In this document: piece by piece, positions 9,074 to 26,793 of the stretch
Numbering within the stretch: the stretch's first letter is position 1
Layout of the letters: each line of letters begins with the position of its first letter
DNA from: a virus
Virus record (IMG/VR): IMGVR_UViG_3300021375_000078
Span: 1 to 37,479 of that record
Reading direction: 5' to 3' (one strand)
DNA: 37,479 bases
Notes under the pieces: model-generated
What the model saw: the letters and a program-made list of their open reading frames with translations, nothing else
Databases searched by the model: none
What the model was told of the DNA's origin: nothing
Position numbers and translations under genes: made by a program

Positions 9074-9203
9074 AATCTTTAAATATTAATTCAACATACC
9101 ATATACCAAATTCAAATATCAATGCTTTATACCGATCATGATAGTATGCATATGTAATACCGAATGATGTTTGTTCAATGTATTGTCCCTTTCTTATTTT
9201 CAT
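9057..9203 (-). CDS. Small overlapping protein (48 aa)
   Basis: This frame fills the whole gap between its neighbours: it starts 29 bases inside the end of the diphosphohydrolase-like gene and ends 17 bases inside the next gene. It has a Tyr-rich centre (Y-A-Y-Y-H-D-R-Y) and a hydrophobic F-G-I-W-Y-V-E-L-I-F segment. Composition and tight fit support a real gene. Function unknown. Confidence 0.55.
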   Translation of the reverse strand: MKIRKGQYIEQTSFGITYAYYHDRYKALIFEFGIWYVELIFKDYEMES

Positions 9204-9477
9204 TTTCCAATTCTTTTTCTAAGCATGCGAGTGCACGCCATGCTACTTTTGCTGTGTGACGAATTCCATCATCATCTATAGTGCCTGCATCTATAAGATG
9301 TCTAGCAAGTGCATCATAATCATCTTTTGATTTATTACGATCCCAATGTAAAGGTTTATCAGGGTGGTGTTGTTTATTACCTTGTAGCGAAACTCTTGCT
9401 ATTTCCATAAGTGCTTTAGGAAAATATTTTATAACACCAGTAAATACTGGTCTTTCTTTTCTGTCTTTTGCGTTCAT
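9175..9477 (-). CDS. dATP/dGTP diphosphohydrolase-like protein (DUF5664-type, 100 aa)
   Basis: The order F-P-K-A-L-M-E-I-A-R-V-S-L, then a Q-x-x-P-D-K-P-x-H-W segment, D-A-L-A-R-H-L-I-D-A-G and H-T-A-K-V-A-W-R-A-L-A-C-L-E-K-E fits the all-alpha dATP/dGTP diphosphohydrolase N-terminal family of phages. Such proteins hydrolyse dNTPs to dNMPs or regulate nucleotide pools. I start at the internal ATG 9477, preceded by an A/T-rich leader, rather than at 9516. The MazG-like gene at 12244 supports a nucleotide-pool role. Confidence 0.6.
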   Translation of the reverse strand: MNAKDRKERPVFTGVIKYFPKALMEIARVSLQGNKQHHPDKPLHWDRNKSKDDYDALARHLIDAGTIDDDGIRHTAKVAWRALACLEKELENENKKGTIH

Positions 9478-9550
9478 ATTTAATTTTTTAATAGGAGAAG
9501 GGGAATAAGAATGCAAAAACTTATCCCCCTGTTGGTTTATATCTCCCGGA

Positions 9551-11778: not shown

Positions 11779-11971
11779 CTATTACTTCTACTTCAGCCCA
11801 TGCTACTAAATGTACTACTTCACCATTGTCTCTGGTGCAATAGCTATACATTCCGTCTATGGATCTAAAATTAAGCTCTTCTCCTTCAGTAATCTGAGGA
11901 GCACCTGGCGGTACCTTATCCTCAGTTACTACTTTAATTCTACTATTTCTAGGTACTTTATATAATTCCAT
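11756..11971 (-). CDS. Small hypothetical protein (71 aa)
   Basis: The protein has V-P-R-N-S-R-I-K-V-V, P-P-G-A-P-x-I, I-D-G-M-Y-S-Y-C and V-H-L-V-A-W-A-E-V-E-V segments suggesting a small all-beta domain. It looks conserved but I cannot name it. The ATG at 11971 overlaps the end of the SET gene by 14 bases; a longer start at 11998 is possible. It shares the operon with SET, MazG and SPL-like genes. Confidence 0.6.
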   Translation of the reverse strand: MELYKVPRNSRIKVVTEDKVPPGAPQITEGEELNFRSIDGMYSYCTRDNGEVVHLVAWAEVEVIDDKNTED

Positions 11972-12254
11972 ATAATTGATATTTAGTAAAGAGCTCATCT
12001 CCTTTTTTAATAAATTTTATTGTAGTTAAACGCATTAAATCACCTGTAGATATTAATTTAGCATTGGGCTCATTACTGTGATTAATAAATCCGCCCAATG
12101 GAGTTCTTATATAGTCATTTTCAAACTTATCATTGTACACATGAGTTATTCCAAGTTCAACACCTTTAACAATATCTTGTGTTGCAAATAAACCCAAACC
12201 GTGTACTGAAGAATCTTTTATAGTAAGACCTTCAGGTAATGGTCTATAACTCAT
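11958..12254 (-). CDS. Minimal SET-domain protein, putative protein-lysine methyltransferase (98 aa)
   Basis: All core SET motifs are visible in order: H-G-L-G-L-F-A-T at about residues 18-25 (SAM contact), G-G-F-I-N-H-S-N-E-P-N-A at about 54-65 (the NHSxxPN motif), and K-K-G-D-E-L-F-T-K-Y at about 82-91 (the catalytic-site tyrosine region). SET proteins transfer methyl groups from SAM to lysines. It is shorter than the viral chlorovirus SET of about 119 residues. The target, host or phage protein, is unknown. It overlaps MazG upstream by 11 bases. Confidence 0.8.
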   Translation of the reverse strand: MSYRPLPEGLTIKDSSVHGLGLFATQDIVKGVELGITHVYNDKFENDYIRTPLGGFINHSNEPNAKLISTGDLMRLTTIKFIKKGDELFTKYQLYGII

Positions 12255-12606
12255 TTTTAATATATGCAGATTCAGTACCAGATATAATATCTATATCTTT
12301 CACTTCAATATCTTTTACAAATTGTCCGTTAACCATCTTGCCTGTACGTTTGCTAATTACATTATAAGCTGATTCAAGGCATTCTTCTAATTTAAGTCCT
12401 TGCATTTTAGCTTGAATAATCAGTGTGACCATAATATCACCCATAGCATCAATAATCTCTGCACGGTCATTACTATTAATAGCCGTGCAAAGTTCTGTTG
12501 TTTCTTCTAAAGTTTTAAGAGCTTGGGCCATTGGTGTGGCTTTATCCAAGATTCCTTTTTCTTGTGCCCAGCTTTCAACTGCGCATTCTAATTCAAAATA
12601 ATCCAT
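12244..12606 (-). CDS. MazG-like nucleotide pyrophosphohydrolase (120 aa)
   Basis: The all-alpha NTP-PPase motif is present: L-E-E-T-T-E-L-C-T-A-I at about residues 32-42 supplies the EExxE, and E-I-I-D-A-M-G-D-I-M-V-T-L at about 49-61 the ExxD. These acidic residues bind Mg and the triphosphate. The enzyme hydrolyses (d)NTPs, or alarmone nucleotides in some phages, and would tune the nucleotide pool with RNR. It starts four bases after the DNA polymerase stop in the same operon. Confidence 0.8.
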   Translation of the reverse strand: MDYFELECAVESWAQEKGILDKATPMAQALKTLEETTELCTAINSNDRAEIIDAMGDIMVTLIIQAKMQGLKLEECLESAYNVISKRTGKMVNGQFVKDIEVKDIDIISGTESAYIKNEL

Positions 12607-12610
12607 ATTT

Positions 12611-14602
12611 TTAAAATAATTTTAATTGATTTGACGATACTGTTAATATGCTATTTATTTCTTTTTCAATTGCTTCTAAATAATAAACTTTATTGATGCC
12701 ATAGTTTTCCCATTTTGGCTCTACTTTCATATCATTATATACAGTTTGTAACCATTTCCCGGCTTCTAGCTGTATTTCCCTGCCATCATTTTTATTAAGT
12801 TTAATAATTTTTACACCAGATTTAGAAATATAATATCTATTTATCTTTTGCAGATCTTTTTCATTATAAACTCCGTCTTTTATTGATTTTGCTACTTGTT
12901 TCCAATCACCTTTAGATTTACCACCTATACAATAATCAAGAATATTTTTATTTGTTTCTAAATAATCTTCAGGTAATACATCTTTAACGAAGTATGAATA
13001 GATAGCTTTTGGGATAACTAACTTTGATTTGTTTTTATGTAATTGTAGATTATGAAAATCAAAGCGTCCCTTTAATTTTACAGGAGCATAACTAAACTTA
13101 TCATTATTTACTTTGAATAAATAGTGTGGCTCAGATTGTTTTATTTCTCTCCATTTAGTAATATCTACTTCTTTAAAATTATTTACGCCTATATAATTAT
13201 TTACATCAGCTAAAACAAGTTTCTGATACTCATCATGTTCTAATTGTAAATTAGTTATTTCTTCCCATTGTTTACATATACCTAAATAGTCATCATAATA
13301 CTCTCTTGGTATCATAGTTTCTATACCATCTGTATTCTGAAGCAATGCTACAGCACCTGGTATTCTTTCCATAACCTGCTCATAAAGCATCATTAGAGAA
13401 AGTTGACCATTAATGGTTATCCTCATACATAATTCAGGATCATAAAAGAAACTATTTACATCATTGCTAAGACCAAAAGTTGAATTAAGTATAATCTTAT
13501 ATACATAATTCATTGGATTGCTCTTAGGAATCTTCTTACGCTCCTCAAAGAACCACTCATACTGATTACAAAACTCTTCTTTTGGAAAGTGTCCAGGTGA
13601 CCATTTATTTTTAATGGCTAAATTTGGATAAAATGATGTTACATCTGAAGACATAATTATCATATCATCATTTGATTCATACACTGCTTTTTTTGCAGCA
13701 CCATGTGCACCACCTAATCCAAAATCTGTTTTAACACCTTTATAGTTTACACTATATTTGAAACCACCTTTAAGTTTTGTTGCATCAATTTCTAGTGTCT
13801 TAAATCTATTATGTAAAGATTTAAACTCATCAGAGATAAAAGATACATATGGTAAAATTATATCTGACACTTTAATTGAATCTCTATGTGTTCTCATTTT
13901 CTTTAAATCTCTTTTAGGAATATTTAAATTTTGAGATAAATAATAGCCAAATATTTCTTTACTGATTCTTGGTTCGGAAGCACTAAACATGTTTATACCA
14001 TATGTTTCTGTAAGTTCTTTTCTTAATCCTATTTGTGATTTTGATCTGTTATATATTTCTTTTGTTGACCTAACATCATTAATACAATACTCAAGAATAG
14101 TATCAATTTGCTCTTGTGTAGTAATTTCAGTCTCATGGTGTATTGGCATATCAATAATGTTTTCCCAATCCATACTGTATTGTATCCATTTTAAGCTGGA
14201 GCGTTTGGCAGGATTGTCCCAATGATGTAATTTAAAAACATCTATTTGACCAATCTTCATTTTCCATTGTGGATAGTCACTGAATTCTTTATTATTAGAT
14301 TTTTTAATACAACTCTGGGCATATTTATAAATAATGTTAGCAATATCACAACCACTTAAATTTGACCAATCTTGATGATTATCTAGTATAAAGTGAGTAA
14401 CTTGACCATCAAATGCTAATCCGTTATAAGATATATGCCATTCTTTATTTAATATGTTATCCTGTAAAAAACTAACAAAAGTATTTATATCATTACGTAG
14501 ATCATGCACAACAAAAACTTTAGTCTCAGTAGTCTTATAATTTTCAAATACACCAGTAAAACAATTTTTTAATGTTTCATAATCCATTACCCAATGTTTC
14601 AT
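12611..14602 (-). CDS. Family B DNA polymerase with 3'-5' exonuclease domain (663 aa)
   Basis: The exonuclease domain is intact: Exo I D7-Y-E9, Exo II Y-N60-G-L-A-F-D65, Exo III Y172-C-I-N-D176. The polymerase domain shows motif A D320-V-T-S-F-Y-P, motif B K369-I-I-L-N-S-T-F-G377, and motif C L-Q-N423-T-D425-G. In most family B enzymes motif C is DTD; here the first Asp is Asn, a variant I associate from memory with some Bacteroidota phage polymerases. The presence of a primase and helicase argues against protein-primed replication. Its ATG overlaps the HTH gene stop as ATGA. Confidence 0.9.
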   Translation of the reverse strand: MKHWVMDYETLKNCFTGVFENYKTTETKVFVVHDLRNDINTFVSFLQDNILNKEWHISYNGLAFDGQVTHFILDNHQDWSNLSGCDIANIIYKYAQSCIKKSNNKEFSDYPQWKMKIGQIDVFKLHHWDNPAKRSSLKWIQYSMDWENIIDMPIHHETEITTQEQIDTILEYCINDVRSTKEIYNRSKSQIGLRKELTETYGINMFSASEPRISKEIFGYYLSQNLNIPKRDLKKMRTHRDSIKVSDIILPYVSFISDEFKSLHNRFKTLEIDATKLKGGFKYSVNYKGVKTDFGLGGAHGAAKKAVYESNDDMIIMSSDVTSFYPNLAIKNKWSPGHFPKEEFCNQYEWFFEERKKIPKSNPMNYVYKIILNSTFGLSNDVNSFFYDPELCMRITINGQLSLMMLYEQVMERIPGAVALLQNTDGIETMIPREYYDDYLGICKQWEEITNLQLEHDEYQKLVLADVNNYIGVNNFKEVDITKWREIKQSEPHYLFKVNNDKFSYAPVKLKGRFDFHNLQLHKNKSKLVIPKAIYSYFVKDVLPEDYLETNKNILDYCIGGKSKGDWKQVAKSIKDGVYNEKDLQKINRYYISKSGVKIIKLNKNDGREIQLEAGKWLQTVYNDMKVEPKWENYGINKVYYLEAIEKEINSILTVSSNQLKLF

Positions 14603-15100: not shown

Positions 15101-15147
15101 TTAAGTAAGAAGAACTTCTAGGTTAGTCAATTTAAGTAAGAAGAACT
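15101..15147. repeat. Tandem 16-bp direct repeats
   Basis: TTAAGTAAGAAGAACT is present exactly at 15101-15116 and 15132-15147, 31 bp apart, the second copy touching the stop codon of the upstream leftward gene. Together with the terminator next to it, this makes the 15066-15145 gap structured. A regulator site, a duplication or an RNA element are all possible. Confidence 0.5.
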
Positions 15148-15565
15148 ATTGACCAGGTAATATAAGATTAGATTTTTTAGTTTCATTTATATCAACATTT
15201 AAAAATGAATTGTAATCAAATTGCTCTGCATTTATTGCAAACATATTAATAAATAGTTCAATATCATTTTTATCTTGAAGATAAAATTCAGAGAATGTAT
15301 CAACAAGTCTTCTTTCTTCTTTATGTGTTTTACCAGTTTGTTGATTTGGTGCTTTTAATCTTACAGGTTGACCTGTATCATCTAATTTTGGTACCATGTG
15401 ATATGATTGTTTCATAACCTTACTGATAACTGCTAATACGCCTGATGATGGGTCAAACATAGCTTCTACATATGGTGAGTCATTACTCACAGGAATAAGT
15501 GTAAATGATTTTGCATTTCTAAATGCTGAGTTTACCAGCATCATATTTTGTCCTACTTGTGTCAT
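15146..15565 (-). CDS. Conserved-type phage protein of unknown function (139 aa)
   Basis: The N-terminal half has a beta-like pattern (K-S-F-T-L-I-P-V, Y-V-E-A-M-F-D-P, L-A-V-I-S-K-V), and the C-terminal half holds a helix and an I-N-M-F-A-I-N-A-E-Q-F-D-Y-N patch. I do not recognise a family. Location next to replication and nuclease genes suggests a role in DNA metabolism, and its end is marked by the repeat-terminator element. Confidence 0.6.
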   Translation of the reverse strand: MTQVGQNMMLVNSAFRNAKSFTLIPVSNDSPYVEAMFDPSSGVLAVISKVMKQSYHMVPKLDDTGQPVRLKAPNQQTGKTHKEERRLVDTFSEFYLQDKNDIELFINMFAINAEQFDYNSFLNVDINETKKSNLILPGQ

Positions 15566-15577
15566 TGATTTTATTTT

Positions 15578-16153
15578 TTATTTAGTCAAAGATATGGAAT
15601 TTTTTTTTAATAATTTATAAATTATATAACTATTATCAAGCAAAGTTTCCTTTTCTAAATTTGGTGGATCACATACTTCATATATGTTTTTTATTAAATC
15701 TACATCCACTGCTAATTGTTCAGCATATTTCTCATGAACTGTATCTGGAGATAAAAATCCTTGTATGTATAATGAAATCTTTTCTTGTGATTGAAAAAAG
15801 TCTACTATATTAATTTTACTATTAAACGAAATCTTTGAGTATGAACCCTTTATAAAATTTTTAAAATCATAACTTAAAGATTTATAATTAAATATAAACA
15901 AATGTCTATTGTCATCTAACTTAATGTAGTCTTCAAATAATTCATGATTTTGAAGATAATTAATAGCAAATTTTTGAAAATTAGAATTCATTTTTGTTTT
16001 ATACTCACACAAGAATTTATTATCATTGAGAGTAAACACATTCTCCCATGCAATATAAGTTTGCACGGGAACATGTGTTACACCTTTCCTAATCTTTAAT
16101 AAAGGATATAAGAAAACTTTACTCTTTTGAAAATAATCTGTATAAACAGCCAT
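15578..16153 (-). CDS. Hypothetical protein (191 aa) beside the PD-(D/E)XK nuclease
   Basis: An Asn/Lys/Phe/Tyr-rich, AT-driven sequence with no recognised motif. It starts one base after the nuclease stop, so it is translated together with it. It might be a partner subunit of the nuclease, but only the position suggests this. Confidence 0.6.
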   Translation of the reverse strand: MAVYTDYFQKSKVFLYPLLKIRKGVTHVPVQTYIAWENVFTLNDNKFLCEYKTKMNSNFQKFAINYLQNHELFEDYIKLDDNRHLFIFNYKSLSYDFKNFIKGSYSKISFNSKINIVDFFQSQEKISLYIQGFLSPDTVHEKYAEQLAVDVDLIKNIYEVCDPPNLEKETLLDNSYIIYKLLKKNSISLTK

Positions 16154-16154
16154 A

Positions 16155-17144
16155 CTATAATTTAATCTTATTTACTAAGAATTCATAGGGAAGAGTGTAA
16201 TTTCTGGTATCATAATGATGTTTTGCTGTCTTCAAAGCTCCTGATAATCCAGATGCCCAAGCAGACAATGATTCATCTGATACTTCAAATACATAAACTT
16301 GTTTATAAACATCTATTACTACAAATTTAAAAACAATTTTATACTCATCTGCATTTTCCCCTAAAGAATCATATACAAGCTTGCTATATATAGCTGCTTG
16401 TAACCAATAATTATAGAAGTCAACTGTATCTCTAAAGTCTGCTACAGTTTTACCTGTTGTTTTAAGGTCGCAAATTGTAACCACCTTGTTTTCATGATCT
16501 ATAACATAATGATCAACATAACCATGAAGACCAAAAGGGTAACCTTCTAGTTCAGATACTAAATATTGCTCAGCATAACTTTCTATAGGATCTAAATCAA
16601 AATCTGTTTGATTGTTTTCAAATAAAGACATAACATTTGCATTGCTTTTTAATTGATCAACGCTGTCTTTACATTTTTGTAATGTATCTTGATCTATTAC
16701 ATCTACTGAAGGATTAGATAAGAATTTCCAATAAGGTTCATTATCTTCATTTATGACCTTAGCTATTCTTGCCTCATCTGCCTTAAGAGATTGATATAGA
16801 TTCATCTCTTTTAATGAATCAAGCACAATAAAATCTTCTACATCATTTAGTTTTTTTGCATCTGTATGAAAAGACATATTTTTAAGTACTTTTCTAACAC
16901 TGTCAGATGGTGATTTACCAGGAACAACATTAAATTTAGTATTAAAATTATCAGGTTCAAATAATAAACAATGTATAGCTTTACCTTCTATAAGGTGTTT
17001 ATCTGTTTTAACCTCTTTGTCTAATAATATATAGTCCTTGTAAAACAGGGACGGTGAAAATAATAATTTGTTTAAAGAAGAGTAGCTAAAGAAAAAATTC
17101 TCTTTAGCATAAAACTCTTCTTCTTTTTTATGATCTCTATTCAT
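16155..17144 (-). CDS. PD-(D/E)XK-family nuclease (RecB/Cas4-like, 329 aa)
   Basis: The N-terminal S-Y-S-S-L-N-K-L-L-F-S-P-S-L-F-Y-K-D-Y motif and H-L-I-E-G-K-A-I-H are typical of phage RecB-type exonucleases. The core is visible as G-Y-V-D-H (about residue 205), V-T-I-C-D-L-K-T-T-G at about 218-227 (Asp and Lys of D-(x)n-DLK), and W-L-Q-A-A-I-Y-S at about 246-253, the QxxxY motif. It probably processes DNA ends for recombination, working with the Sak4-like ATPase and the SSB-like protein. No four-Cys iron-sulfur cluster is seen. Confidence 0.75.
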   Translation of the reverse strand: MNRDHKKEEEFYAKENFFFSYSSLNKLLFSPSLFYKDYILLDKEVKTDKHLIEGKAIHCLLFEPDNFNTKFNVVPGKSPSDSVRKVLKNMSFHTDAKKLNDVEDFIVLDSLKEMNLYQSLKADEARIAKVINEDNEPYWKFLSNPSVDVIDQDTLQKCKDSVDQLKSNANVMSLFENNQTDFDLDPIESYAEQYLVSELEGYPFGLHGYVDHYVIDHENKVVTICDLKTTGKTVADFRDTVDFYNYWLQAAIYSKLVYDSLGENADEYKIVFKFVVIDVYKQVYVFEVSDESLSAWASGLSGALKTAKHHYDTRNYTLPYEFLVNKIKL

Positions 17145-18288
17145 TTATCATATTTTCTAATTCATCTGCAATATACAAATTTTCTAAATCAATTTTAAAA
17201 ACTTGACTTGTGTCACCACAAATACTTGATATTAAAGTTTTATATAATTTTTCTCTAGTTTTATCTACTGCAAATCTTGTTAATTTTCCATCTTTAGCTA
17301 ATTGATTTAAATAAGCGTTAAAAGAATAAATATTACTAGTATTATGACCACCTTCATAACTTTTCATTCTATTACGTAAAGACTTTACATTTACAGAATT
17401 CCAATTATTTGTGTCTTTGATAAAATCATAATGCCACCAGTATAAATCTGATACAATATTAAAAGACTTTTCTATATTGCAGTTAGCTAGCATCTCTACA
17501 CCCAATGTTCTATTATCTCTATCACTACTTTTTATCATAGCTATAATATTATCATATTGGTCATCTTTCAACACTGCCAACTCAGAGTCTATAATATCTA
17601 ATATATCAGTATCATATACAATCTCAGCATTGCTACTTAGAAAATTTTCATATACTTTTTTATTCTTTTCTTCAATAACTATTACTTTAGTATAATCATT
17701 TTTATACTTATTAACTATATCATAAAATTTATCATCCCACTGTTTTATATGAGGGCTACTACTATAGTAATAATTTTTTTTTAGTGCAACATAAGAGTCT
17801 TTATCAGCATTTTTAATCATTAATTTTAAATAATCTGTACACTCTTGACTAAATAAACCTTCCTCTACTCCTAATTTTATAATATTAAAAAAGTCAACAA
17901 AAGAAACAACATGATTTTCCCATCTAAAATCAAATAGATTTCTTAAAAATTTATAAGATATTACATGTATATCTGCTTTATCTGGATCTCTCACCACTTT
18001 TATATTTTCTTTTTCTTTAAGTAAATCTACTTTTTGTCTAGGTAAACTTAAATTAGGAAATCTATACACAGTCTTATCCTTAATAGAAAAGGTTTTACCC
18101 GGTTTTATATCAGGTATATTTAGATTTTCTATATCTGTTTTACCAAGTTCCCATGAATTACTAAAACCCATAAAGTATTCATTTTTTCTTACACTAAGTT
18201 CAATTGCACCTTTATTAGCAATTGGATTTGCTTTAGAATCACATTGAATAAGATCCATGTTATAATTTATTTGATAAAATGTTTTCAT
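17137..18288 (-). CDS. Unknown protein A of a paralogous pair (383 aa)
   Basis: Not recognised. It shares a co-linear pattern with its neighbour at 18285-19316: residues about 72-110 (L-P-R-Q-K-V, then D-P-D-K-A-D-I-H-V-I) resemble neighbour residues 66-105 (S-L-D-K-I-K, then D-Y-T-E-A-D-L-I-V-T), and later R-D-N-R-T-L-G-V-E-M-L-A-N-C-N-I and N-A-Y-L-N-Q-L-A-K-D-G-K-L also match. The N-terminal module could be BRCT-like, which is weak. It overlaps the next gene by ATGA and belongs to the MoxR/vWA operon. Confidence 0.65.
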   Translation of the reverse strand: MKTFYQINYNMDLIQCDSKANPIANKGAIELSVRKNEYFMGFSNSWELGKTDIENLNIPDIKPGKTFSIKDKTVYRFPNLSLPRQKVDLLKEKENIKVVRDPDKADIHVISYKFLRNLFDFRWENHVVSFVDFFNIIKLGVEEGLFSQECTDYLKLMIKNADKDSYVALKKNYYYSSSPHIKQWDDKFYDIVNKYKNDYTKVIVIEEKNKKVYENFLSSNAEIVYDTDILDIIDSELAVLKDDQYDNIIAMIKSSDRDNRTLGVEMLANCNIEKSFNIVSDLYWWHYDFIKDTNNWNSVNVKSLRNRMKSYEGGHNTSNIYSFNAYLNQLAKDGKLTRFAVDKTREKLYKTLISSICGDTSQVFKIDLENLYIADELENMINE

Positions 18289-19316
18289 ACTAAATATTTT
18301 TTATATTCTTTTTTAACTGACACTTGAAAAACATATAACTCTCTGTTAGCAATATGTATTGCTCTTCTACAAGTAGGCTCTAGATATCTAAAAGATGCTT
18401 TAGTTAATAAATCTTTTTCTTCTAACCATTGTATCATATCATAAGCATTTTTATGATAAAGATCTCCAAAATTAGATTTATCCAACCAATATTGTATGTC
18501 TTTATTTCTATTAAAATCATATGTAATTGCATTACAATCTTGACTTAACTGCCAAAGTAAATGATGATTTTTAGTATAATCTATATTTGGTATAATTGAT
18601 GCGGCCATTTCTTTATCATCACCACCAGCATTAACCATAGACTTTATTTGTTCTACTAATTCTTCTGTTAATTCCATTTTTGATGCTGATGCATGCAGAA
18701 CAGTTTCACAATCAACTGTTGTAATAGCACCGGTATCAATCAAATAAGCAATGTTTACTGCTAAACCTGTAATTAACCATTTATCATACAAACTATCTTC
18801 TATATTAAGACTATAATACCTCATTGAGTCTGTAATTTTTTTAGTTACAATTACATCTTGAACGGAATTTGTAATCAAAGAATTAATAGACGTTGTAGAA
18901 CTACTACATCCACTTGTTGTTTCATAATTCCAAAGTCTAACCATCATTTTTGTTGATGGTATATTTTCTGAATGCTCACAACGTTGACTTATATTATCAT
19001 GAGTAACAATTAAGTCTGCTTCAGTATAATCATTTGTTAATGTTATTTTATGTTCTCTTAATGCAGCTTTAATTTTATCTAAAGATACATCTGCACCTGG
19101 TAATACAAATGCTTTCTTTTTATTAACAAAAGTTGAATCTGTTTCTTTAGATGATTCTAATATATCTTGTATGTTATTATAAGTTGTTTTATCTTCTGTA
19201 ACTAATACTTGTTCTATTACAGATCCAGCAAGGACCCCATATATAGGGTCCCCTGCTAAATCAAAATGAGTCATAGCATTAGCATCATAAAATTGATGTA
19301 CTGATTTATTTGCCAT
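18285..19316 (-). CDS. Unknown protein B of a paralogous pair (343 aa)
   Basis: Diverged relative of protein A (17137-18288). It has A-F-V-L-P-G-A-D-V-S-L-D-K-I-K-A-A-L-R at about residues 69-87 followed by a D-Y-T-E-A-D-L-I-V segment, a helical middle with D-D-K-E-M-A-A-S-I-I-P-N-I-D-Y, and a C-terminal N-A-Y-D-M-I-Q-W-L-E-E-K-D-L-L-T. Its start lies two bases from the MoxR gene stop. The pair may be substrates or adaptors of the MoxR/vWA machine, inferred from position only. Confidence 0.65.
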   Translation of the reverse strand: MANKSVHQFYDANAMTHFDLAGDPIYGVLAGSVIEQVLVTEDKTTYNNIQDILESSKETDSTFVNKKKAFVLPGADVSLDKIKAALREHKITLTNDYTEADLIVTHDNISQRCEHSENIPSTKMMVRLWNYETTSGCSSSTTSINSLITNSVQDVIVTKKITDSMRYYSLNIEDSLYDKWLITGLAVNIAYLIDTGAITTVDCETVLHASASKMELTEELVEQIKSMVNAGGDDKEMAASIIPNIDYTKNHHLLWQLSQDCNAITYDFNRNKDIQYWLDKSNFGDLYHKNAYDMIQWLEEKDLLTKASFRYLEPTCRRAIHIANRELYVFQVSVKKEYKKYLV

Positions 19317-19317
19317 T

Positions 19318-20589
19318 TTATTTCATTGTCATTGTGACGATCTCTGGTATCATCATTAATTTATTAAACTTCTTTTTATTACCATTAAATATTGTACGTA
19401 CAATTAAATACTTGAGATCATTTGTAAAATAATCCTTTGTACATAGCGATTTAAGTCTATCTGTTATCTTTTGAGTTACTGTATTTTCTTTAGAATATAC
19501 AACCGAAAAGTTTCCAAGTCTTGTTGCTAATGTAGATGCAATATCTGCACGATAAGTGTCATCTTTACCAATACAAGATCTTAATTCATTAAGAATATAT
19601 TGTTCATTGTCATGAAGTAATAGATCTTTTGGTGTTACAAGCTTATCAAGCTTATTATTAATAAATGTAGTAAACATAGATGCAAAAGCATCACCAACAC
19701 TACCTTCACCAATCATTTGAATCATACTAAGGTTATCCTCAAAATTATCAAAGCTTGATATTGCATTAAAGAATGTTGTTATGGATCTAGCATTTGTTTC
19801 TTGAGTTACTAACTCTGGATGTAGTAGCAAAAAGTTGATACATCTTGAATCAATATTAGCAGATTCTGCCCATTGAGCCCATACATTAACATCAAACTTT
19901 AGGTTTGCAGTTACATATCTGGTCTTTTGTGCTGAGTCAATACTATTAACCATATAGTCACCATTATCTGGATTTGCAGTTAAAATTATATGCCAATCTT
20001 TTGGTAGTGTCCATGAAATATAGGTTTGACGGTCAATTAATTCCATAACCGCTTGAATAAACCTTGTATCTGCACGGTTCCAGTCATCTAGTAATAAAAT
20101 ACCACCAGCTTTTGCATCAGCAATCCATTCAGGAGCACAATAAGACATTCTGTTCTTACCTGTCATTTTGTATCCATTCTTTAAATACTCTTGCACGGCA
20201 AGTTCATCAACCCACATTCCAACTTTTTTAGTTGTAGTGGTTTGCATATTTGCTAAACTTGATCCTGCTGCTCTTTGAGCTGCAGTAACCATAGATAAAT
20301 CATCTACTTTCTTAACTGGTACTGCTTTTTCTTTATACATCTGAAACTGACGTACAGGAAAACCAACTAAGTCACCTAGCTCTTCTATTTGAGCAAGATT
20401 AAGTTTTACAAATTTTAAATTATTGTCTTGTGCGAGTTCTACTATGGTAGAAGTTTTACCAATGCCTGATTCACCAACAACTTCAACTGATACAGAACTC
20501 TTACCTTCTTCCTGTAAATGTCTATTATTAGTAATTATGTGATTAACAAACCCTTTTAATTCTGTTACATTTAAATTTACTTGTGCCAT
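19318..20589 (-). CDS. MoxR-type AAA+ ATPase (423 aa)
   Basis: Walker A is G-E-S-G-I-G-K-T at about residues 40-47 and Walker B is G-G-I-L-L-L-D-D-W-N-R-A-D near 165-177, followed by a sensor-like T-A-N-P-D-N-G-D-Y. The pattern places it with MoxR/BchI-like AAA+ proteins that act with vWA proteins as protein-remodelling or metal-insertion chaperones. The metallopeptidase-vWA gene lies immediately upstream, as is usual for this pairing. Similar pairs occur in phages with unknown roles. Confidence 0.8.
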   Translation of the reverse strand: MAQVNLNVTELKGFVNHIITNNRHLQEEGKSSVSVEVVGESGIGKTSTIVELAQDNNLKFVKLNLAQIEELGDLVGFPVRQFQMYKEKAVPVKKVDDLSMVTAAQRAAGSSLANMQTTTTKKVGMWVDELAVQEYLKNGYKMTGKNRMSYCAPEWIADAKAGGILLLDDWNRADTRFIQAVMELIDRQTYISWTLPKDWHIILTANPDNGDYMVNSIDSAQKTRYVTANLKFDVNVWAQWAESANIDSRCINFLLLHPELVTQETNARSITTFFNAISSFDNFEDNLSMIQMIGEGSVGDAFASMFTTFINNKLDKLVTPKDLLLHDNEQYILNELRSCIGKDDTYRADIASTLATRLGNFSVVYSKENTVTQKITDRLKSLCTKDYFTNDLKYLIVRTIFNGNKKKFNKLMMIPEIVTMTMK

Positions 20590-20599
20590 TTTTTTTTTA

Positions 20600-21763
20600 T
20601 TAATTTAATTGAATTTTCTTTCCTGGTAACTCTTCATTTATACTACAGTTTGAACTGTGGACCCACAACGTATTGTTAGGACAGTTATCTGGAGTATAAG
20701 CCTCACCATCTGTTAAATATATAAGAGCTGTATAACGCCCTTTATTCTCATTGTAATGATCAATAACTGGTTGGAAGCTTGTCCCACCACGACCATGTAT
20801 TTCCCAATCTTTTTTTGGACTGAATTCTTTAATATCATTTATTTTAGTGTCACATTGTACAACTGTAATTTTATGACCAGTCTTATGCATATGCGTAAGC
20901 TCACTAAAGAATTCCTTTAGTTCATCATTATTTACAGATCCACTTGTGTCAACACCAACACATATATGATTCTTGAATTTAATTTTAAGACCTGGATTAG
21001 CAGCATAACGTTTATTATACTTACGTCTCAGCTTTTTAGTATAAACTATACTAGAGTTACCAATAAATCTTCTCAAATAAGCTTTCCAATCAAACTTGGG
21101 AGGATCAACATGTAGCAATCTTCTAATTAAATCTGCTAATTCACCTGGTATATTACCACATCTTTTTTCTGTAGTTTCTGCCGCGTCTTTTAATTGATGC
21201 TCAATTTGCTTTTGCATTAATTTTTTATCAGCTTCAGGTAATTCATCAAACTCATCCCATGTACTATGGCAATACTGTGACTCACCGTTCATTTGTTGCA
21301 TAAGATTATCTAATGAAGGAGATGTTCCATCTTCTTTAGCTTCCTGTAATAGTTCATAGTACTTTTTTGTACCTGCCCTTTGAGGTAAATTTAGCTCTGG
21401 AAAACTTGATAGTAATAAACCACCTTTAGGTAATTTACTTTCCAGTATGTACTGGTTAATCTCTAAATCAGCAGCTATATTAAATAACTTGTGATCAGAA
21501 TATAGATCTCTTAATAAAAGATGACCAAATGCAATATGCAAAAGCTCATGTTTAATTAATCCAAATCTATGATCTTCACTAAGTTCATTATAGAACTCAG
21601 GGTTTATTGTCAATTGGACACCAATACCTTGTTTGCTTACTCCTGCTGTAGGAATACGCTCACTATATTGTTTATTGATACCAATTAAAAAGAGCCCGTA
21701 AAAGGGCTCTGCAAATATTAAAGTTTTGGTTGTTTTAGCAACCTGATCCTGAATATTAATCAT
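20600..21763 (-). CDS. Metallopeptidase-like / vWA protein (DUF2201-type, 387 aa)
   Basis: The N-terminal domain has a zincin motif H72-E-L-L-H76-I-A-F-G-H, preceded by the conserved E-P-F-Y-G-L-F-L-I patch at residues 19-27. The C-terminal domain is vWA with MIDAS D272-T-S-G-S276 and a later Y-L-T-D-G-E-A. This fusion is the usual partner of MoxR ATPases. A terminator-like hairpin with unusually GC-rich codons lies inside codons 18-25. The start overlaps the previous gene by 8 bases; no later Met gives the conserved N-terminus. Confidence 0.8.
   Translation of the reverse strand: MINIQDQVAKTTKTLIFAEPFYGLFLIGINKQYSERIPTAGVSKQGIGVQLTINPEFYNELSEDHRFGLIKHELLHIAFGHLLLRDLYSDHKLFNIAADLEINQYILESKLPKGGLLLSSFPELNLPQRAGTKKYYELLQEAKEDGTSPSLDNLMQQMNGESQYCHSTWDEFDELPEADKKLMQKQIEHQLKDAAETTEKRCGNIPGELADLIRRLLHVDPPKFDWKAYLRRFIGNSSIVYTKKLRRKYNKRYAANPGLKIKFKNHICVGVDTSGSVNNDELKEFFSELTHMHKTGHKITVVQCDTKINDIKEFSPKKDWEIHGRGGTSFQPVIDHYNENKGRYTALIYLTDGEAYTPDNCPNNTLWVHSSNCSINEELPGKKIQLN
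21691..21710 (-). terminator. Terminator-like hairpin inside the vWA coding sequence
   Basis: On the minus strand AGAGCCC and GGGCTCT form a perfect 7-bp stem with a 6-base loop (TTTTAC), followed by a T run (TTTTAATT). It covers codons 18-25 of the metallopeptidase-vWA gene. The codons GAG, CCC, GGG and CTC are GC-rich where this genome elsewhere favours A/T-ending codons. It could attenuate transcription of the vWA, MoxR and downstream genes. Confidence 0.5.
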
Positions 21764-22061
21764 TTTTCATAATTTTATCTAGTATTTTTTTATAAATAGA
21801 ATGCATTTTTTCTTCTTGTACATAAAGATATAATTCTTGTTTACCTACTATTGGTGTATCAGTAAATGTTACTGCATCAGCAAACTTTTTTCTATGTTTA
21901 AACATCAAAGCTTTATGCATTAACAAATCAATTGCATCATCTTTAAAAGTATTTTTATAAATTTCCCAAGCTATTTCCTGATCATCAGGTAAGCCTTGAA
22001 ACATTTCCTTTAATCTAAAGAATTCTTTTAATGTAATTATTTTGTAATTATTTTTATCCAT
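21756..22061 (-). CDS. Hypothetical protein (101 aa)
   Basis: A soluble helical protein starting with a short basic segment, with F-F-R-L-K-E-M-F-Q-G-L-P-D-D-Q-E and a central D-L-L-M-H-K-A-L helix. Not recognised. It overlaps the RusA-like gene upstream by 25 bases and the vWA gene downstream by 8 bases, so it is part of the same transcript. Confidence 0.6.
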   Translation of the reverse strand: MDKNNYKIITLKEFFRLKEMFQGLPDDQEIAWEIYKNTFKDDAIDLLMHKALMFKHRKKFADAVTFTDTPIVGKQELYLYVQEEKMHSIYKKILDKIMKND

Positions 22062-22414
22062 ACTCCTGGATTCTTTTTATCATATGTATACTGTTCAAAT
22101 GCTGGAATTATAAACTCTGCATTATCATCTTCTATCCAACCGTATTTTACCATATCATCTTGAACTGTTTGTGCAGGATTTAAATAATCAAACTTATGAC
22201 GACTACCTCTGACAAATTCAAAAGATATTTTAACTGGTAAATCATAATTCTTTAAAGCTTCTTTAAAATCTTTGGTATAACCTAAGTATATATCTTTAGT
22301 AGCTTTTCTATAATTCATTACAGCTTTACTTGCTATAAAGTATTTACCGGTCCATCTTCTTCCGTTTTTACTTGACGGAACATTGCCTGGTATCCACCAT
22401 TTTTTATTTTCCAT
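22037..22414 (-). CDS. RusA-like Holliday junction resolvase (125 aa)
   Basis: The N-terminal V-P-S-S-K-N-G-R-R-W and the H-K-F-D-Y-L-N-P-A-Q-T-V-Q-D-D-M-V-K-Y segment followed by W-I-E-D-D-N-A match the RusA family, in which spaced aspartates coordinate Mg to resolve four-way junctions. The length fits (E. coli RusA about 120). It would resolve recombination or packaging intermediates with the other recombination genes. Confidence 0.8.
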   Translation of the reverse strand: MENKKWWIPGNVPSSKNGRRWTGKYFIASKAVMNYRKATKDIYLGYTKDFKEALKNYDLPVKISFEFVRGSRHKFDYLNPAQTVQDDMVKYGWIEDDNAEFIIPAFEQYTYDKKNPGVWIKIITK

Positions 22415-22848: not shown

Positions 22849-23826
22849 TTACTTTTTTAATGTTTCTTTTAATAGCGGTCTTAGCATTGCATGAACTTTA
22901 TCAAACCCATGGGTCTTCATTGCATCAGATACGTCTTTACATATAGTAGGAGTACATCCTTGTATTTTATATGTATTTACATATCTGTCTATTGCTTGCC
23001 TACCCGCTTGATCATTATCAAAAAGTGTTATTATTTTTTTATACTTCTTCTTCAATAATGATATTATATGTGGTTTAATCATTGTATTCTCTGAATCAGG
23101 TGCTACAACTTCTATATTATAACCCATACCTTTCAAACACATTGCATCTTTAAGAGATGAGCATATTATCAAGTATGGCTGATTGTATTTTAATTGATCA
23201 ATACCTTGTATATAATCTTTAACTTTATGAAACTTATGTGATTTGCTTTTTGGTTGATATATTTTATATACTTCACCCTGTTTATCAAGATAACCATAGC
23301 ATAGTCCTGCTCCCACTTGCAATGATCTAAATTTACCATCTTCTTCAATATTCATAGTAAAGTAATCTATTGGTTTTACATTATATGTTTCAAGCATTGT
23401 TTTGCCTATTCTATAATCCAACCAATATTTACGATCTAAAACGGTCCATGTTTTATATTTGATAAAATCTATTTTCCATTTTGGCGCAGGTTTGAAATCT
23501 ATATCTATATTACCACCTTGCTTTATAAAGTTATTGTAATCATCTATCATTTTTCTGGTTGCTGCAGGATAATCTAAACTAAAAAGTAATCTTACTAAAT
23601 CAGCTTTATTACCACCTTTACCTGTAGAAAAGTCTTTAAACTTATACTGCATAATTGTTTTATCAACATATATGCAAAAGCTGGCAGTTTTTTCATTAGG
23701 ATTAAATATAGACTTAATCTTAATGTCTTGTCCCGTCAACTGTTCAGGAAGATCTAAATAGTATTGAAATACCCAATAACTTGGTATATCTGATTCTTCT
23801 AAAATTAAATTTCTTGTGCTAAACAT
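22849..23826 (-). CDS. TOPRIM primase (DnaG-like, 325 aa)
   Basis: The C-terminal half holds a TOPRIM domain: I-I-C-S-S-L-K-D-A-M-C-L (about residues 219-230) and I-T-L-F-D-N-D-Q-A-G-R at about 266-276, the DxD motif. The usual first Glu is replaced by Ser, as in some phage TOPRIM proteins. The N-terminal domain has the position and turns of a CHC2 zinc finger (K-F-K-D-F-S-T-G-K-G-G-N) but no cluster of zinc-binding Cys. It would make RNA primers for the family B polymerase. Confidence 0.8.
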   Translation of the reverse strand: MFSTRNLILEESDIPSYWVFQYYLDLPEQLTGQDIKIKSIFNPNEKTASFCIYVDKTIMQYKFKDFSTGKGGNKADLVRLLFSLDYPAATRKMIDDYNNFIKQGGNIDIDFKPAPKWKIDFIKYKTWTVLDRKYWLDYRIGKTMLETYNVKPIDYFTMNIEEDGKFRSLQVGAGLCYGYLDKQGEVYKIYQPKSKSHKFHKVKDYIQGIDQLKYNQPYLIICSSLKDAMCLKGMGYNIEVVAPDSENTMIKPHIISLLKKKYKKIITLFDNDQAGRQAIDRYVNTYKIQGCTPTICKDVSDAMKTHGFDKVHAMLRPLLKETLKK

Positions 23827-23842
23827 GATCTTAATATATTAA

Positions 23843-23877
23843 AAGAAATAGGCCCAGCGTTAACTGAGCCCTTTCTT
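23843..23877. terminator. Strong hairpin terminator between SSB-like and primase genes
   Basis: The two arms at 23843-23857 and 23864-23877 form a long stem with one bulged base and a 6-base loop; a GC core (CTCAG / CTGGG on the minus strand) is flanked by A/T pairs that give a U-rich 3' side. It lies in the 60-base gap after the SSB-like gene. It probably ends most of that transcript or marks an attenuator before primase. Confidence 0.7.
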
Positions 23878-23886
23878 ATATTAATA

Positions 23887-24561
23887 TTACAGATCAAAAT
23901 CACTACCTGCCACTACTGCTGGTTCAAAATTGTCTGCTTTTGGTGCATTATTTTTAACTATTGGTCTAAAATGATTAACATCATTTCTATTAAATATTAA
24001 TAGATTAGAATTTTCTAAATCTAATGCCTCCAGTGGCGCACCATTTTTGGATCTTTTAGGAAGAAATAAATCATTATTTGTATAACCATCTTTGTTTTCC
24101 CACTCACGTGCACCCAAACAAGCATTGATATATCCGGTATTGCTCAAAAGAAGATTACATTTTACCATAAAGTCTTCAATTGTATTGGCTTGAATTTCAT
24201 CAAGTTCTTTACGTTTATCTAATACTTCTGATAAATATACCATGGCTTTTAATACCTCTGTATCTCTATTTATTTCATTACCATTTTGTAATACAGCATC
24301 TTTATATGGATATGGACTAAATCTTACTCTACCAACTTGACCTTCATATTTTGGTCCATTTGGATTATTCATATCTTTCAAGAAACCATTAAACTCTCCT
24401 ACAATAGGCTCTGATTCAACATGCAAAACAATATTGTATGCATCTGCATCATATGGTGTTTGATCAAATGATATTGAATTAATTTTGATTACTTGATTAC
24501 CCGGTTCAATTACAGGTTTTGTTCCGCCTGACCCTGCAGACATGTCTTTAGTACTTAACAT
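23887..24561 (-). CDS. Putative single-stranded DNA-binding protein (224 aa)
   Basis: A beta-rich protein with I-K-I-N-S-I-S-F, Y-N-I-V-L-H-V-E-S-E and V-G-R-V-R-F-S-P-Y segments that fit an OB-type fold, and an acidic tail ending G-S-D-F-D-L, as SSBs use to recruit partners. It directly follows the Sak4-like ATPase, and SSB-Sak4 pairs are typical of phage annealing systems. The family is inferred from context and tail, not a named motif. Confidence 0.55.
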   Translation of the reverse strand: MLSTKDMSAGSGGTKPVIEPGNQVIKINSISFDQTPYDADAYNIVLHVESEPIVGEFNGFLKDMNNPNGPKYEGQVGRVRFSPYPYKDAVLQNGNEINRDTEVLKAMVYLSEVLDKRKELDEIQANTIEDFMVKCNLLLSNTGYINACLGAREWENKDGYTNNDLFLPKRSKNGAPLEALDLENSNLLIFNRNDVNHFRPIVKNNAPKADNFEPAVVAGSDFDL

Positions 24562-24588
24562 AATTTACTTTTTTTAATTAATTAATTT

Positions 24589-25272
24589 TTATTTATTGTA
24601 TTCTTCAATACAATCTTTTACATATTGTAGGTCATTTGGAATAAACAATTCTTCAAACATACCCATAGGTGATTTACATGTGTTCTCTCCATTGTTTTGT
24701 GTTTCAAAACCATATATAAGTTCACCATCATCATTTTTATTTACTTTACCAAATAGTACAATTGAAAATAGACCTTCCAAAGTTAATGTATTATCAATCA
24801 TTTTACCAATTGTTTTTGCTTTGATTTTTCTATTTCCGTTTATATCAGTGGAATCTTCAGAGTGTGTCAAAAAGATTACAGTTAAGTCTTCTCTTAAATC
24901 TTTAGGAAGCTTTGCAACCTGAGCTAAGTTAGCTGCAATCTGTGTAAACTTATCATAACCTTTTTCATTAGCTCTATCAAAATATTCAAAAGAACTCATA
25001 TACTGCCAATCATCTACAACAATAGTTTTAATGCTTGGCATTTTATCATTGACATGCATCATAGCCTTAATAATACCAGGAGCACTTGCTGCTGATGTTA
25101 AATTACCTTTTGGATTATCTTTAGTTATTTGAGTATACTTACTCTTATAACCCTTAAAAGGTAAAGGTTTATTTGCTATGTTTATAATGAAAGTCTCCTC
25201 TGGTTTTAATGTTCTGATTGAGGTAGACTTTCCTGTACCTGAATCTGCAATTACTAATACGCTTTGTGCCAT
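24589..25272 (-). CDS. Sak4-like RecA-fold ATPase (227 aa)
   Basis: Walker A is A-D-S-G-T-G-K-S-T at residues 9-17, followed by I-R-T-L-K-P-E-E-T-F-I-I-N and K-P-L-P-F-K-G-Y, which are characteristic of phage Sak4-type proteins. Walker B is T-I-V-V-D-D-W-Q-Y-M at about 84-93. Sak4 promotes single-strand annealing and recombination with the phage SSB, which follows here. The size matches the family. Confidence 0.75.
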   Translation of the reverse strand: MAQSVLVIADSGTGKSTSIRTLKPEETFIINIANKPLPFKGYKSKYTQITKDNPKGNLTSAASAPGIIKAMMHVNDKMPSIKTIVVDDWQYMSSFEYFDRANEKGYDKFTQIAANLAQVAKLPKDLREDLTVIFLTHSEDSTDINGNRKIKAKTIGKMIDNTLTLEGLFSIVLFGKVNKNDDGELIYGFETQNNGENTCKSPMGMFEELFIPNDLQYVKDCIEEYNK

Positions 25273-25273
25273 T

Positions 25274-25840
25274 TTATTTAATTAATTTATTGATTACTTT
25301 TGTTAATGTTATTATTGATTGGTTAATATCTTCTAACTTATTTACTAAATCAGTTGATGGATTAGCATCTGGATTAGGTAAATCAAATTTCATATCTTCC
25401 GTTATTCTTAAATCATTATTAGAAATAACATCTGATTTATTTCTATCAGTAACATCATTTATAACTTTTAATTCACTTACTGGTATAAGATGTCTTTGAA
25501 ATCCTGAGCTTGATGTTATTAATTCATATTCATTTTTCCAATGAGGGTTATATTTATGTAAATATAATGTTCTTTTTGGATCTTCAATATCATAATCTAT
25601 ACTGACAAATTCAGTATATATGTTTTCATCTTTTTCAAGTTCACTTGGAAAAAAGCTTACATATAACTCATCTTTACCTTTAGGTCTATAAGCCATCTTA
25701 GGTATATATAGTGCATCTATTTTACCTTCTATTTGAAAGTAATCTTCATGCTCTTCTCTAAGGGCCGCAACTTTTTCTTTTCTTTGTTGTGGTGTTAGTC
25801 CCATCTTTTTGTTATTATTTAAATTTTTAGTATTTATCAT
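25274..25840 (-). CDS. Hypothetical protein between helicase and Sak4-like genes (188 aa)
   Basis: The protein has a helical N-terminus (Q-Q-R-K-E-K-V-A-A-L-R-E-E-H-E-D-Y-F), a beta-rich middle with Y-I-P-K-M-A-Y-R and L-Y-V-S-F-F-P-S, and a leucine/isoleucine heptad at the end (L-E-D-I-N-Q-S-I-I-T-L-T-K-V-I) suggesting a coiled coil. The ATG overlaps the helicase stop as ATGA. Not recognised; a replication-complex adaptor is possible. Confidence 0.6.
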   Translation of the reverse strand: MINTKNLNNNKKMGLTPQQRKEKVAALREEHEDYFQIEGKIDALYIPKMAYRPKGKDELYVSFFPSELEKDENIYTEFVSIDYDIEDPKRTLYLHKYNPHWKNEYELITSSSGFQRHLIPVSELKVINDVTDRNKSDVISNNDLRITEDMKFDLPNPDANPSTDLVNKLEDINQSIITLTKVINKLIK

Positions 25841-26793
25841 CTTCTTTCTTGTTGTCCCGGTGTAGGCATTTCTTCTATTTGCATTTGTTCAAACTTTGCT
25901 TTAAAGAATGACATTCTTGCATCACCATTTCTAGCTTTTAAGAAATGCAATACCAAAGTTCTATCATTTTCTATTATGTATCTATCTGGACCATAAAATC
26001 TAATCTTTTGTTTTGCAGGCCTGTTGATACCTATTAAAGTATCAGCATGCTGTAACATAGCATCTGATCCAAATATGTCTGACTCAAGAATATAATTACC
26101 ATACTTACCATCTATAGCCCTGTCCGGGTTATCTATATTCCTATTCAATTGTGATAAACAAATAAATAAACAAGGATAGTCCCTTTTACACTGTGTAAAG
26201 AATTCACCTAATTCAAATAGCATATCTAATGTACTATTTTGATACGGCGCTCTTTTAACTAACATGCTATGGTCTAAAGTAATTATTGTCTTTGTTCCTT
26301 GATGTTTTACCATATACTGATCTATTTGATCACGCATTTGGTTTACTGTCATAGGTGTAGATATAATATCAACCGGATATTTTACTCTTTCTTTAGCATA
26401 TTCATGACATTTATTTAAAGTATCTTTAGTTAATACACTACCAGCACTACATAGTTCTTTATAAGTTTTACCTGTTATAGAACTAAATTCCCTTATTGCT
26501 GATGTTCTTCCAACCATTTCAAATTGAAATTCTAATACTCTAAATTCATCATTTGGATTTAGCATGAATGATTCTCTAATTATCTGATCTTTAATTAATG
26601 TTTTACCTGAGCCAGGTCTACCACCAATTACAGTTAAAGTGTTCCATTCTAAACCATCGGTAGTTGCATCATTAAATTTAGGCCATGGAGTATAGATTGA
26701 TTTTTCTTCTCCTGTTGACCTTCTAAACATATATTTAAGCGCTTCATTGAATGCAGTATGTTGACCTGCCCATGATTCTTTAGTTTTACTCAT
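25837..26793 (-). CDS. DnaB-type replicative helicase (318 aa)
   Basis: Walker A G-G-R-P-G-S-G-K-T is at about residues 57-65, preceded by W-N-T-L-T-V-I. Further motifs include T-I-I-T-L-D-H-S near 172-179, C-L-F-I-C-L-S-Q-L-N-R at about 212-222, and G-S-D-A-M-L-Q-H-A-D-T-L. It corresponds to the C-terminal RecA-like domain of DnaB/gp4 helicases without the usual N-terminal primase-binding domain. It starts in an ATGA overlap with the 26790 gene, likely its loader. Confidence 0.8.
   Translation of the reverse strand: MSKTKESWAGQHTAFNEALKYMFRRSTGEEKSIYTPWPKFNDATTDGLEWNTLTVIGGRPGSGKTLIKDQIIRESFMLNPNDEFRVLEFQFEMVGRTSAIREFSSITGKTYKELCSAGSVLTKDTLNKCHEYAKERVKYPVDIISTPMTVNQMRDQIDQYMVKHQGTKTIITLDHSMLVKRAPYQNSTLDMLFELGEFFTQCKRDYPCLFICLSQLNRNIDNPDRAIDGKYGNYILESDIFGSDAMLQHADTLIGINRPAKQKIRFYGPDRYIIENDRTLVLHFLKARNGDARMSFFKAKFEQMQIEEMPTPGQQERR

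Follow-up and report, generated by a model that had tools for sequence, protein, structure and literature searches.

Two fast-evolving protein families tied to a MoxR/metallopeptidase-vWA gene pair in a crAss-like replication block of marine phages

Adjacent genes for a MoxR-type AAA+ ATPase and a protein with a vWA domain have been described from several viral and bacterial settings. In N4-like phages, gp24 (listed as 'unknown') and gp25 (listed as 'vWFA domain') are core genes and belong to the middle transcripts (PMC4193335), and Iyer et al. (2021) proposed that a MoxR and metallopeptidase-vWA pair of group 2.2 jumbo phages serves virion assembly (PMC7824862). More distantly related is the MoxR protein p618 of Acidianus two-tailed virus (ATV), which binds virion proteins as well as the vWA protein p892 (PMC4124505); AAA/vWA gene neighbours of haloviruses are further off (PMC7911831). 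Bacterial MoxR-vWA ternary conflict systems (VMAP and others) include a third, variable protein (PMC7159879). The pair itself is not new, being known from N4-like core genes, jumbo phages and cyanophages; homologues of the vWA protein were found here in 385–451 phage records. The subject of this paper is a cassette on the minus strand (positions 16155–22061) of the IMG/VR virus record IMGVR_UViG_3300021375_000078, analysed over its full 37,479 bp (the window, whose positions serve as coordinates). It comprises, in order, x101, a DUF2201 metallopeptidase-vWA protein, a MoxR ATPase, the proteins P2 and P1, and an exonuclease-VIII-like PD-(D/E)XK nuclease. New here are the P1 and P2 families, their locking to the MoxR/vWA pair, and their setting in a crAss-like replication block. 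Both families lack a Pfam or PHROG match, yet each is encoded by about 200 IMG/VR stretches. No paper naming both 'crAss-like' and 'MoxR' was found in the library searched.

Linkage and motifs of the cassette

Scans of IMG/VR with vWA, P1 and P2 and with their alignments yielded about 240 overlapping loci, which are the units counted here, only loci long enough to show a given neighbour being scored for it. The order rusA-x101-vWA-MoxR-P2-P1-nuclease-191aa-139aa is constant among the marine relatives in IMG/VR, with x101 upstream of the vWA gene in most of them. MoxR was present at 214 of 214 P2 loci, vWA at 211 of 211 and P1 at 204 of 204; P2 in turn was present at 215 of 219 MoxR loci, and the four without it belong to the reference phages MTATph1, S-TIM5, AD45-P1 and SP-076. 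With gene order uniform across the marine relatives, this co-occurrence is far beyond chance. An earlier reading of this DNA, made from its sequence only, had grouped the MoxR/vWA pair with two paralogous proteins and a PD-(D/E)XK nuclease, and the fixed marine order supports that grouping: the same order, when sought in other phages, proved to be kept in all marine relatives, and P2, far from occurring mostly without MoxR and vWA, was accompanied by them at every locus scored. The further description of the set as a 'phage-specific machine' was too broad, since the pair is already common in phages and occurs without P1/P2 in the reference phages tested. Profiles of P1 and P2 gave no match in eleven reference phage genomes (five with a MoxR-vWA pair, and gut crAss genomes among them), and the neighbours of the pair in MTATph1, S-TIM5, AD45-P1 and SP-076 were rejected as P1/P2 counterparts for want of any such match. 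A nucleotide search among phages with the whole operon found no match.

The genes had also been read as joined by short overlaps. In the window this holds for x101/vWA (8 bp), P2/P1 (4 bp, ATGA) and P1/nuclease (8 bp), but vWA and MoxR are separated by a gap of 10 bp, and MoxR and P2 by 1 bp.

Distinct full-length sequences numbered 101 for the vWA protein, 85 for MoxR, 89 for P2 and 85 for P1. The vWA protein matches DUF2201_N (7.7e-18) and DUF2201 (3.6e-17) in Pfam, both above cut-off, as well as phrog_1314 (1.3e-66); N4 gp25 is aligned with it in alignment A4, which, gp25 being included, finds gp25 at 1.1e-118. The zincin motif HExxH is intact in 101 of 101 relatives, and H72, E73, H76 and H81 are unchanged even in N4, S-TIM5, AD45-P1 and MTATph1; in the metal-ion-dependent adhesion site (MIDAS), DxSxS is kept in 100 of 101 relatives, and GGT and TDG in all 101. 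These motifs point to a metallopeptidase-vWA co-chaperone of the DUF2201 type represented by N4 gp25. The label 'HNH endonuclease' attached to phrog_1314 looks wrong for this family, and many phage records carry copies of it. The ATPase matches phrog_1297 at 2e-34 (N4 gp24 does so at 2.1e-136); Walker A has the form GxxGxGK[TS] in 85 of 85 relatives, 84 of them with exactly GESGIGKT, and Walker B reads LLLDD in 84 of 85. Although the Pfam family AAA_5 falls below its cut-off (18.7 against 22 bits), the Walker motifs and the phrog_1297 match argue for assignment to the MoxR AAA+ family, and the two adjacent genes constitute a phage MoxR/metallopeptidase-vWA pair of the kind described by Iyer et al. 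(2021) and present as N4 gp24/gp25. The nuclease, predicted to be a PD-(D/E)XK exonuclease of the exonuclease VIII type, matches phrog_412 (exonuclease VIII, 4.2e-20) and PF12684 (DUF3799, PDDEXK-like, 8e-6), and keeps its DLKT motif in 75 of 75 relatives. The Pfam and PHROG matches confirm the identities first read for the MoxR, metallopeptidase-vWA and PD-(D/E)XK genes, and these, with the two further genes, were all located at 16155–22061 on the minus strand. In single contigs (L217, L176, L033) the MoxR, vWA or P2 frames are split, probably by sequencing errors or in decaying copies.

Divergence, exchange and structure of P1 and P2

Median pairwise identity falls from 87% for MoxR through 81% for vWA, 78% for the 139-residue protein, 76% for RusA, 65% for the nuclease, 60% for P2 and 51% for the 191-residue protein to 39% for P1, which evolves fastest among the eight genes compared. 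The median ratio of non-synonymous to synonymous substitution rates (dN/dS), taken over 665 pairs that are not independent of one another, is 0.08 for MoxR, 0.11 for vWA, 0.22 for P2, 0.29 for the 191-residue protein and 0.49 for P1. Gene-wide positive selection on P1 is unsupported, its dN/dS ranging from 0.16 to 0.79. Between the window and locus L001, dS is 0.19 for P2 and 0.18 for P1 but 0.49–1.27 for the other genes; between the window and locus L083 it is 1.07 for P2 but 0.14–0.62 for the others. These contrasts indicate that P2 and P1 have been replaced by recombination while the motor was conserved.

Neither protein gave a match above noise in Pfam, PHROG or the sequences of the PDB, and a Pfam/PHROG scan of 37–38 relatives of each gave only scattered weak matches, of which PIG-H, DUF4240, phrog_30479 and others were rejected as weak matches of single members, inconsistent between members. 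Searches of phages by tblastn with P1 and P2 at E 0.01 found none. The AlphaFold2 models are of good confidence, with a predicted local distance difference test score (pLDDT) of 88.7 for P2 and 87.3 for P1. No PDB fold was matched by either model in Foldseek at E < 0.001, and the best sensible local match of both was BRCT (probability about 0.5–0.8 over about 45 residues, with a weak E of about 0.1–2); no BRCT was found in the PDB sequence search. Matches to GabR, a pyridoxal phosphate enzyme and ATP synthase were rejected (root-mean-square deviation about 20 Å, probability < 0.1). The P2 model matches four viral structures with E of about 1e-6; a CrAss-like virus supplies one of them and a single podovirus two (the sources include CrAss-like virus ctYsL76 and Podoviridae sp. 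ctz6O13), so that proteins of this kind also occur as a pair elsewhere.

P1 and P2 show no similarity to each other by BLASTP (E 1.7) and only a weak one by hhalign (probability 2–10%, P 0.003–0.02), and their best ungapped 40-residue segment score was matched or beaten by 8.7% of shuffles. Their modules are collinear, however, residues 63–107 and 214–253 of P2 corresponding to 68–112 and 239–278 of P1, and the first module aligns without gaps and with nearly identical modelled secondary structure, as compared by eye (the secondary-structure score of hhalign was zero). The N-terminal part of x101 resembles the helical module of P2 (hhalign P 0.0015–0.0026, and an ungapped profile score above all 300 column shuffles), its likeness to P1 being weaker. 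The paralogy of P1 and P2 claimed earlier is therefore probable: the collinear modules, the matching secondary structure and the shared BRCT match speak for it, the absent BLASTP and weak hhalign similarity do not, and sequence alone is no proof.

Phage lineage and the ATP_43b position

The best matches of the window DnaB are dominated by Crassvirales, and the window replication genes stand in crAss order. A complete relative, WLWP01000004.1 (114,697 bp, with a 127-bp end repeat), encodes a TerL (phrog_6681) whose best tblastn matches are Crassvirales at about 25% identity, and a portal protein (phrog_6547, 8e-86); its cassette, at about 79–85 kb, is encoded on the minus strand amid replication genes, with the terminase, the portal and a block of giant proteins on the plus strand. 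Because TerL, portal, DnaB and gene order are of crAss type, the window is assigned, as a fragment of a genome of about 115 kb, to a divergent marine crAss-like phage lineage, which is either a member of Crassvirales or a sister group. The circularly assembled crAss-like genome WLWP01000004.1 sits in a Pseudomonadales metagenome-assembled genome in GTDB, probably as a binning artefact or as a host hint; a Pseudomonadales host was not accepted, a single phage contig in a bin being weak evidence.

The cassette is flanked by RusA, primase, Sak4 and DnaB genes on one side and leads into exonuclease and polymerase on the other (Table 1), which bears out its earlier placement in a replication and recombination region. 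According to Yutin et al., four genes in the replication block of crAss-like phages are highly conserved, and one of them encodes an AAA+ ATPase, ATP_43b (PMC7886860). Judged by position and family, ATP_43b would correspond to phrog_2376, the AAA+ ATPase that precedes the exonuclease in the gut crAss genomes cr52_1 and cr273_1 (E of about 1e-48 in both). In seven IMG/VR relatives of 107–117 kb phrog_2376 had no match, and in the complete relative it reached E 0.46 at best; phrog_1297 (MoxR) was found in all eight of these large marine relatives, and the reverse holds in cr52_1 and cr273_1. The genome cr10_1 is also without phrog_2376, and the same block there holds a CobS-like ATPase (phrog_249) and a DUF7192 protein. 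This CobS-like AAA and DUF7192 pair lies between the Sak4 region and the primase at L254 15003–17133 and L255 15063–17239 (cr10_1 and the crAss-like MT835473).

Table 1. Predicted features of the cassette and its neighbours in the window
Feature	Position	Strand	Basis
x101, 101 residues, first gene of the cassette	21756..22061	-	profile comparison with P2 and P1
Metallopeptidase-vWA protein, 387 residues, DUF2201_N and DUF2201, N4 gp25 homologue	20600..21763	-	Pfam, phrog_1314
Zincin motif HELLHIAFGH of vWA protein, residues 72-81	21521..21550	-	motif conservation
MIDAS motif DTSGS of vWA domain, residues 272-276	20936..20950	-	motif conservation
MoxR-type AAA+ ATPase, 423 residues, N4 gp24 homologue	19318..20589	-	phrog_1297
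Walker A GESGIGKT of MoxR ATPase, residues 39-46	20452..20475	-	motif conservation
P2, 343 residues, no family match	18285..19316	-	gene call, AlphaFold2 model
P2 beta-alpha-beta (BRCT-like half) module, residues 63-107	18996..19130	-	model, Foldseek
P2 helical-repeat module, residues 214-253, common to x101	18558..18677	-	hhalign, profile score
P1, 383 residues, no family match	17137..18288	-	gene call, AlphaFold2 model
P1 beta-alpha-beta (BRCT-like half) module, residues 68-112	17953..18087	-	model, Foldseek
P1 helical-repeat module, residues 239-278	17455..17574	-	hhalign, mutually consistent register with P2 and x101
PD-(D/E)XK exonuclease, exonuclease VIII-like (DUF3799)	16155..17144	-	phrog_412, PF12684
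RusA-like Holliday junction resolvase, upstream neighbour	22037..22414	-	phrog_1682, 5e-19
191-residue conserved protein, downstream neighbour	15578..16153	-	order kept in relatives
139-residue conserved protein, downstream neighbour	15146..15565	-	order kept in relatives
DNA polymerase, replication block	12611..14602	-	phrog_1252, 2e-129
Primase (22849-23826), Sak4-like annealing protein (24589-25272), DnaB-like helicase (25837-26793)	within 22849..26793	-	Crassvirales order

Elsewhere in the replication region, a short SET-domain protein (11958–12254; PF00856, 1.1e-9) adjoins MazG. A tail of the form [VI]DIISGTESAY occurs at the C-termini of unrelated proteins, once per locus in 29 loci, and at 12244–12606 in the window; its carriers are mostly MazG-like, with a SET-like protein in L028 and L108 and a member of the 9175–9516 family in L205.

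A proposed remodeller, its alternatives and its known relatives

We put forward, tentatively, as the best of the readings considered but as plausible rather than probable, that the cassette encodes a replication-stage, ATP-driven remodeller with dedicated, fast-evolving client or adaptor proteins in a marine crAss-like lineage. MoxR would assemble into a ring driven by ATP, and the metallopeptidase-vWA protein would act as its co-chaperone, binding partners through the MIDAS site, while the zinc peptidase, probably active to judge from its motifs, could clip or gate bound partners. P2 and P1, probably duplicated and each combining a BRCT-like beta-alpha-beta module with a helical-repeat domain, would be dedicated clients or adaptors that guide the machine; what it acts on would most likely be a nucleoprotein complex of phage replication and recombination (primase, Sak4, RusA, exonuclease, polymerase). 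The cassette may stand in for the ATP_43b of other crAss-like phages. The more specific claim, that the MoxR/vWA-zincin and two duplicated BRCT-like/helical-repeat partners form a dedicated replication-recombination remodeller that has replaced ATP_43b in a widespread marine lineage, is doubtful; if it held, no MoxR-vWA machine would, to our knowledge, have been linked to a replication fork before. The invariable tie to two specific partners supplies concrete candidate clients for MoxR-vWA, and the comparison with ATP_43b a testable idea of the process that the cassette serves.

Several points weigh against the remodeller. The physical MoxR-vWA-P1/P2 complex is a prediction from the gene set, and a location in the replication block is no proof of a replication role. 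The likeness to BRCT is weak: beyond the lack of a PDB match at E < 0.001, Pfam BRCT appeared in 3 of 24 module sequences, with a best E of 0.0054 and amid other noise. The loss of ATP_43b may have other causes, and the IMG/VR relatives, being classed as linear, may be fragments. Rapid evolution and exchange of P1 and P2 are also compatible with a host-directed role. In such a role, in counter-defence or host takeover, P1 and P2 would be variable recognition proteins delivering host targets to the MoxR/vWA-zincin for unfolding or cleavage, and their fast divergence (identity 39% and 60% against 87% for MoxR; dN/dS 0.49 and 0.22 against 0.08), their swapping between genomes in the dS contrasts with L001 and L083, and the existence of bacterial ternary systems with a variable third protein (PMC7159879) would all suit it. 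We nevertheless think it unlikely, given that gene-wide dN/dS is below 1, that the setting is a replication block, and that PADLOC gave nothing beyond a marginal BrxF match of the ATPase (E 0.007). Counter-defence genes are usually patchy in distribution, whereas no marine relative lacks P1 or P2.

The place of the cassette in the genome speaks more for a role at the replication stage than for virion maturation. A chaperone for structural proteins, in which MoxR-vWA would carry out assembly and the zincin processing, with P1 and P2 as scaffolds or clients, would have the same architecture as that proposed for virion assembly in group 2.2 jumbo phages (Iyer et al. 2021, PMC7824862); a like role, without a peptidase, has been proposed for ATV, where p618 binds virion proteins (PMC4124505). 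This we regard as improbable: the cassette is surrounded by replication genes, with the structural block encoded on the other strand, N4 gp24/gp25 are middle transcripts, and the evolutionary rates of P1 and P2 far exceed those of the adjoining MoxR and vWA. That the linkage is positional only, the vWA-MoxR pair having its own job as in N4-like phages and P1 and P2 being unrelated, co-transcribed replication accessories, would agree with the pair's presence in reference phages without a P1/P2 match in the genome and with P1/P2 rates uncoupled from those of MoxR and vWA; the four-gene order without exception among the marine loci retrieved, although P2 and P1 recombine, makes it unlikely.

The cassette can be set beside five described arrangements. 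The Crassvirales replication block with ATP_43b (phrog_2376) next to a PD-(D/E)XK nuclease shares with it the order DnaB, Sak4-like, primase, ATPase slot, exonuclease, but in the marine lineage the slot holds RusA, x101, vWA, MoxR, P2 and P1, and phrog_2376 was not found there. In cr10_1 and MT835473, a CobS/MoxR-like ATPase is likewise paired with a second gene within the replication block, but the families are others (phrog_249 and phrog_1909) and the pair is placed between the Sak4 region and the primase. VMAP-type ternary systems also combine MoxR, vWA and a more variable third protein in a fixed gene order, but the order is a different one, and the window cassette is phage-borne and has a metallopeptidase-vWA protein; VMAP was not among the Pfam matches of P1, P2 or the members of A2, the members of A1 as a set lying outside the scan. 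N4 gp24/gp25 and their counterparts in other Schitoviridae are homologous MoxR and DUF2201-type vWA proteins, encoded by adjacent middle genes, but they are only 22–29% identical to the window proteins, their order is MoxR-vWA rather than vWA-MoxR, and N4 and SP-076 have no P1/P2 match. The group 2.2 jumbo-phage system has the same two-protein architecture, with an N-terminal metallopeptidase fused to vWA, but is described as a pair alone, whereas the marine crAss-like pair is locked to P2, P1 and the exonuclease within the replication block.

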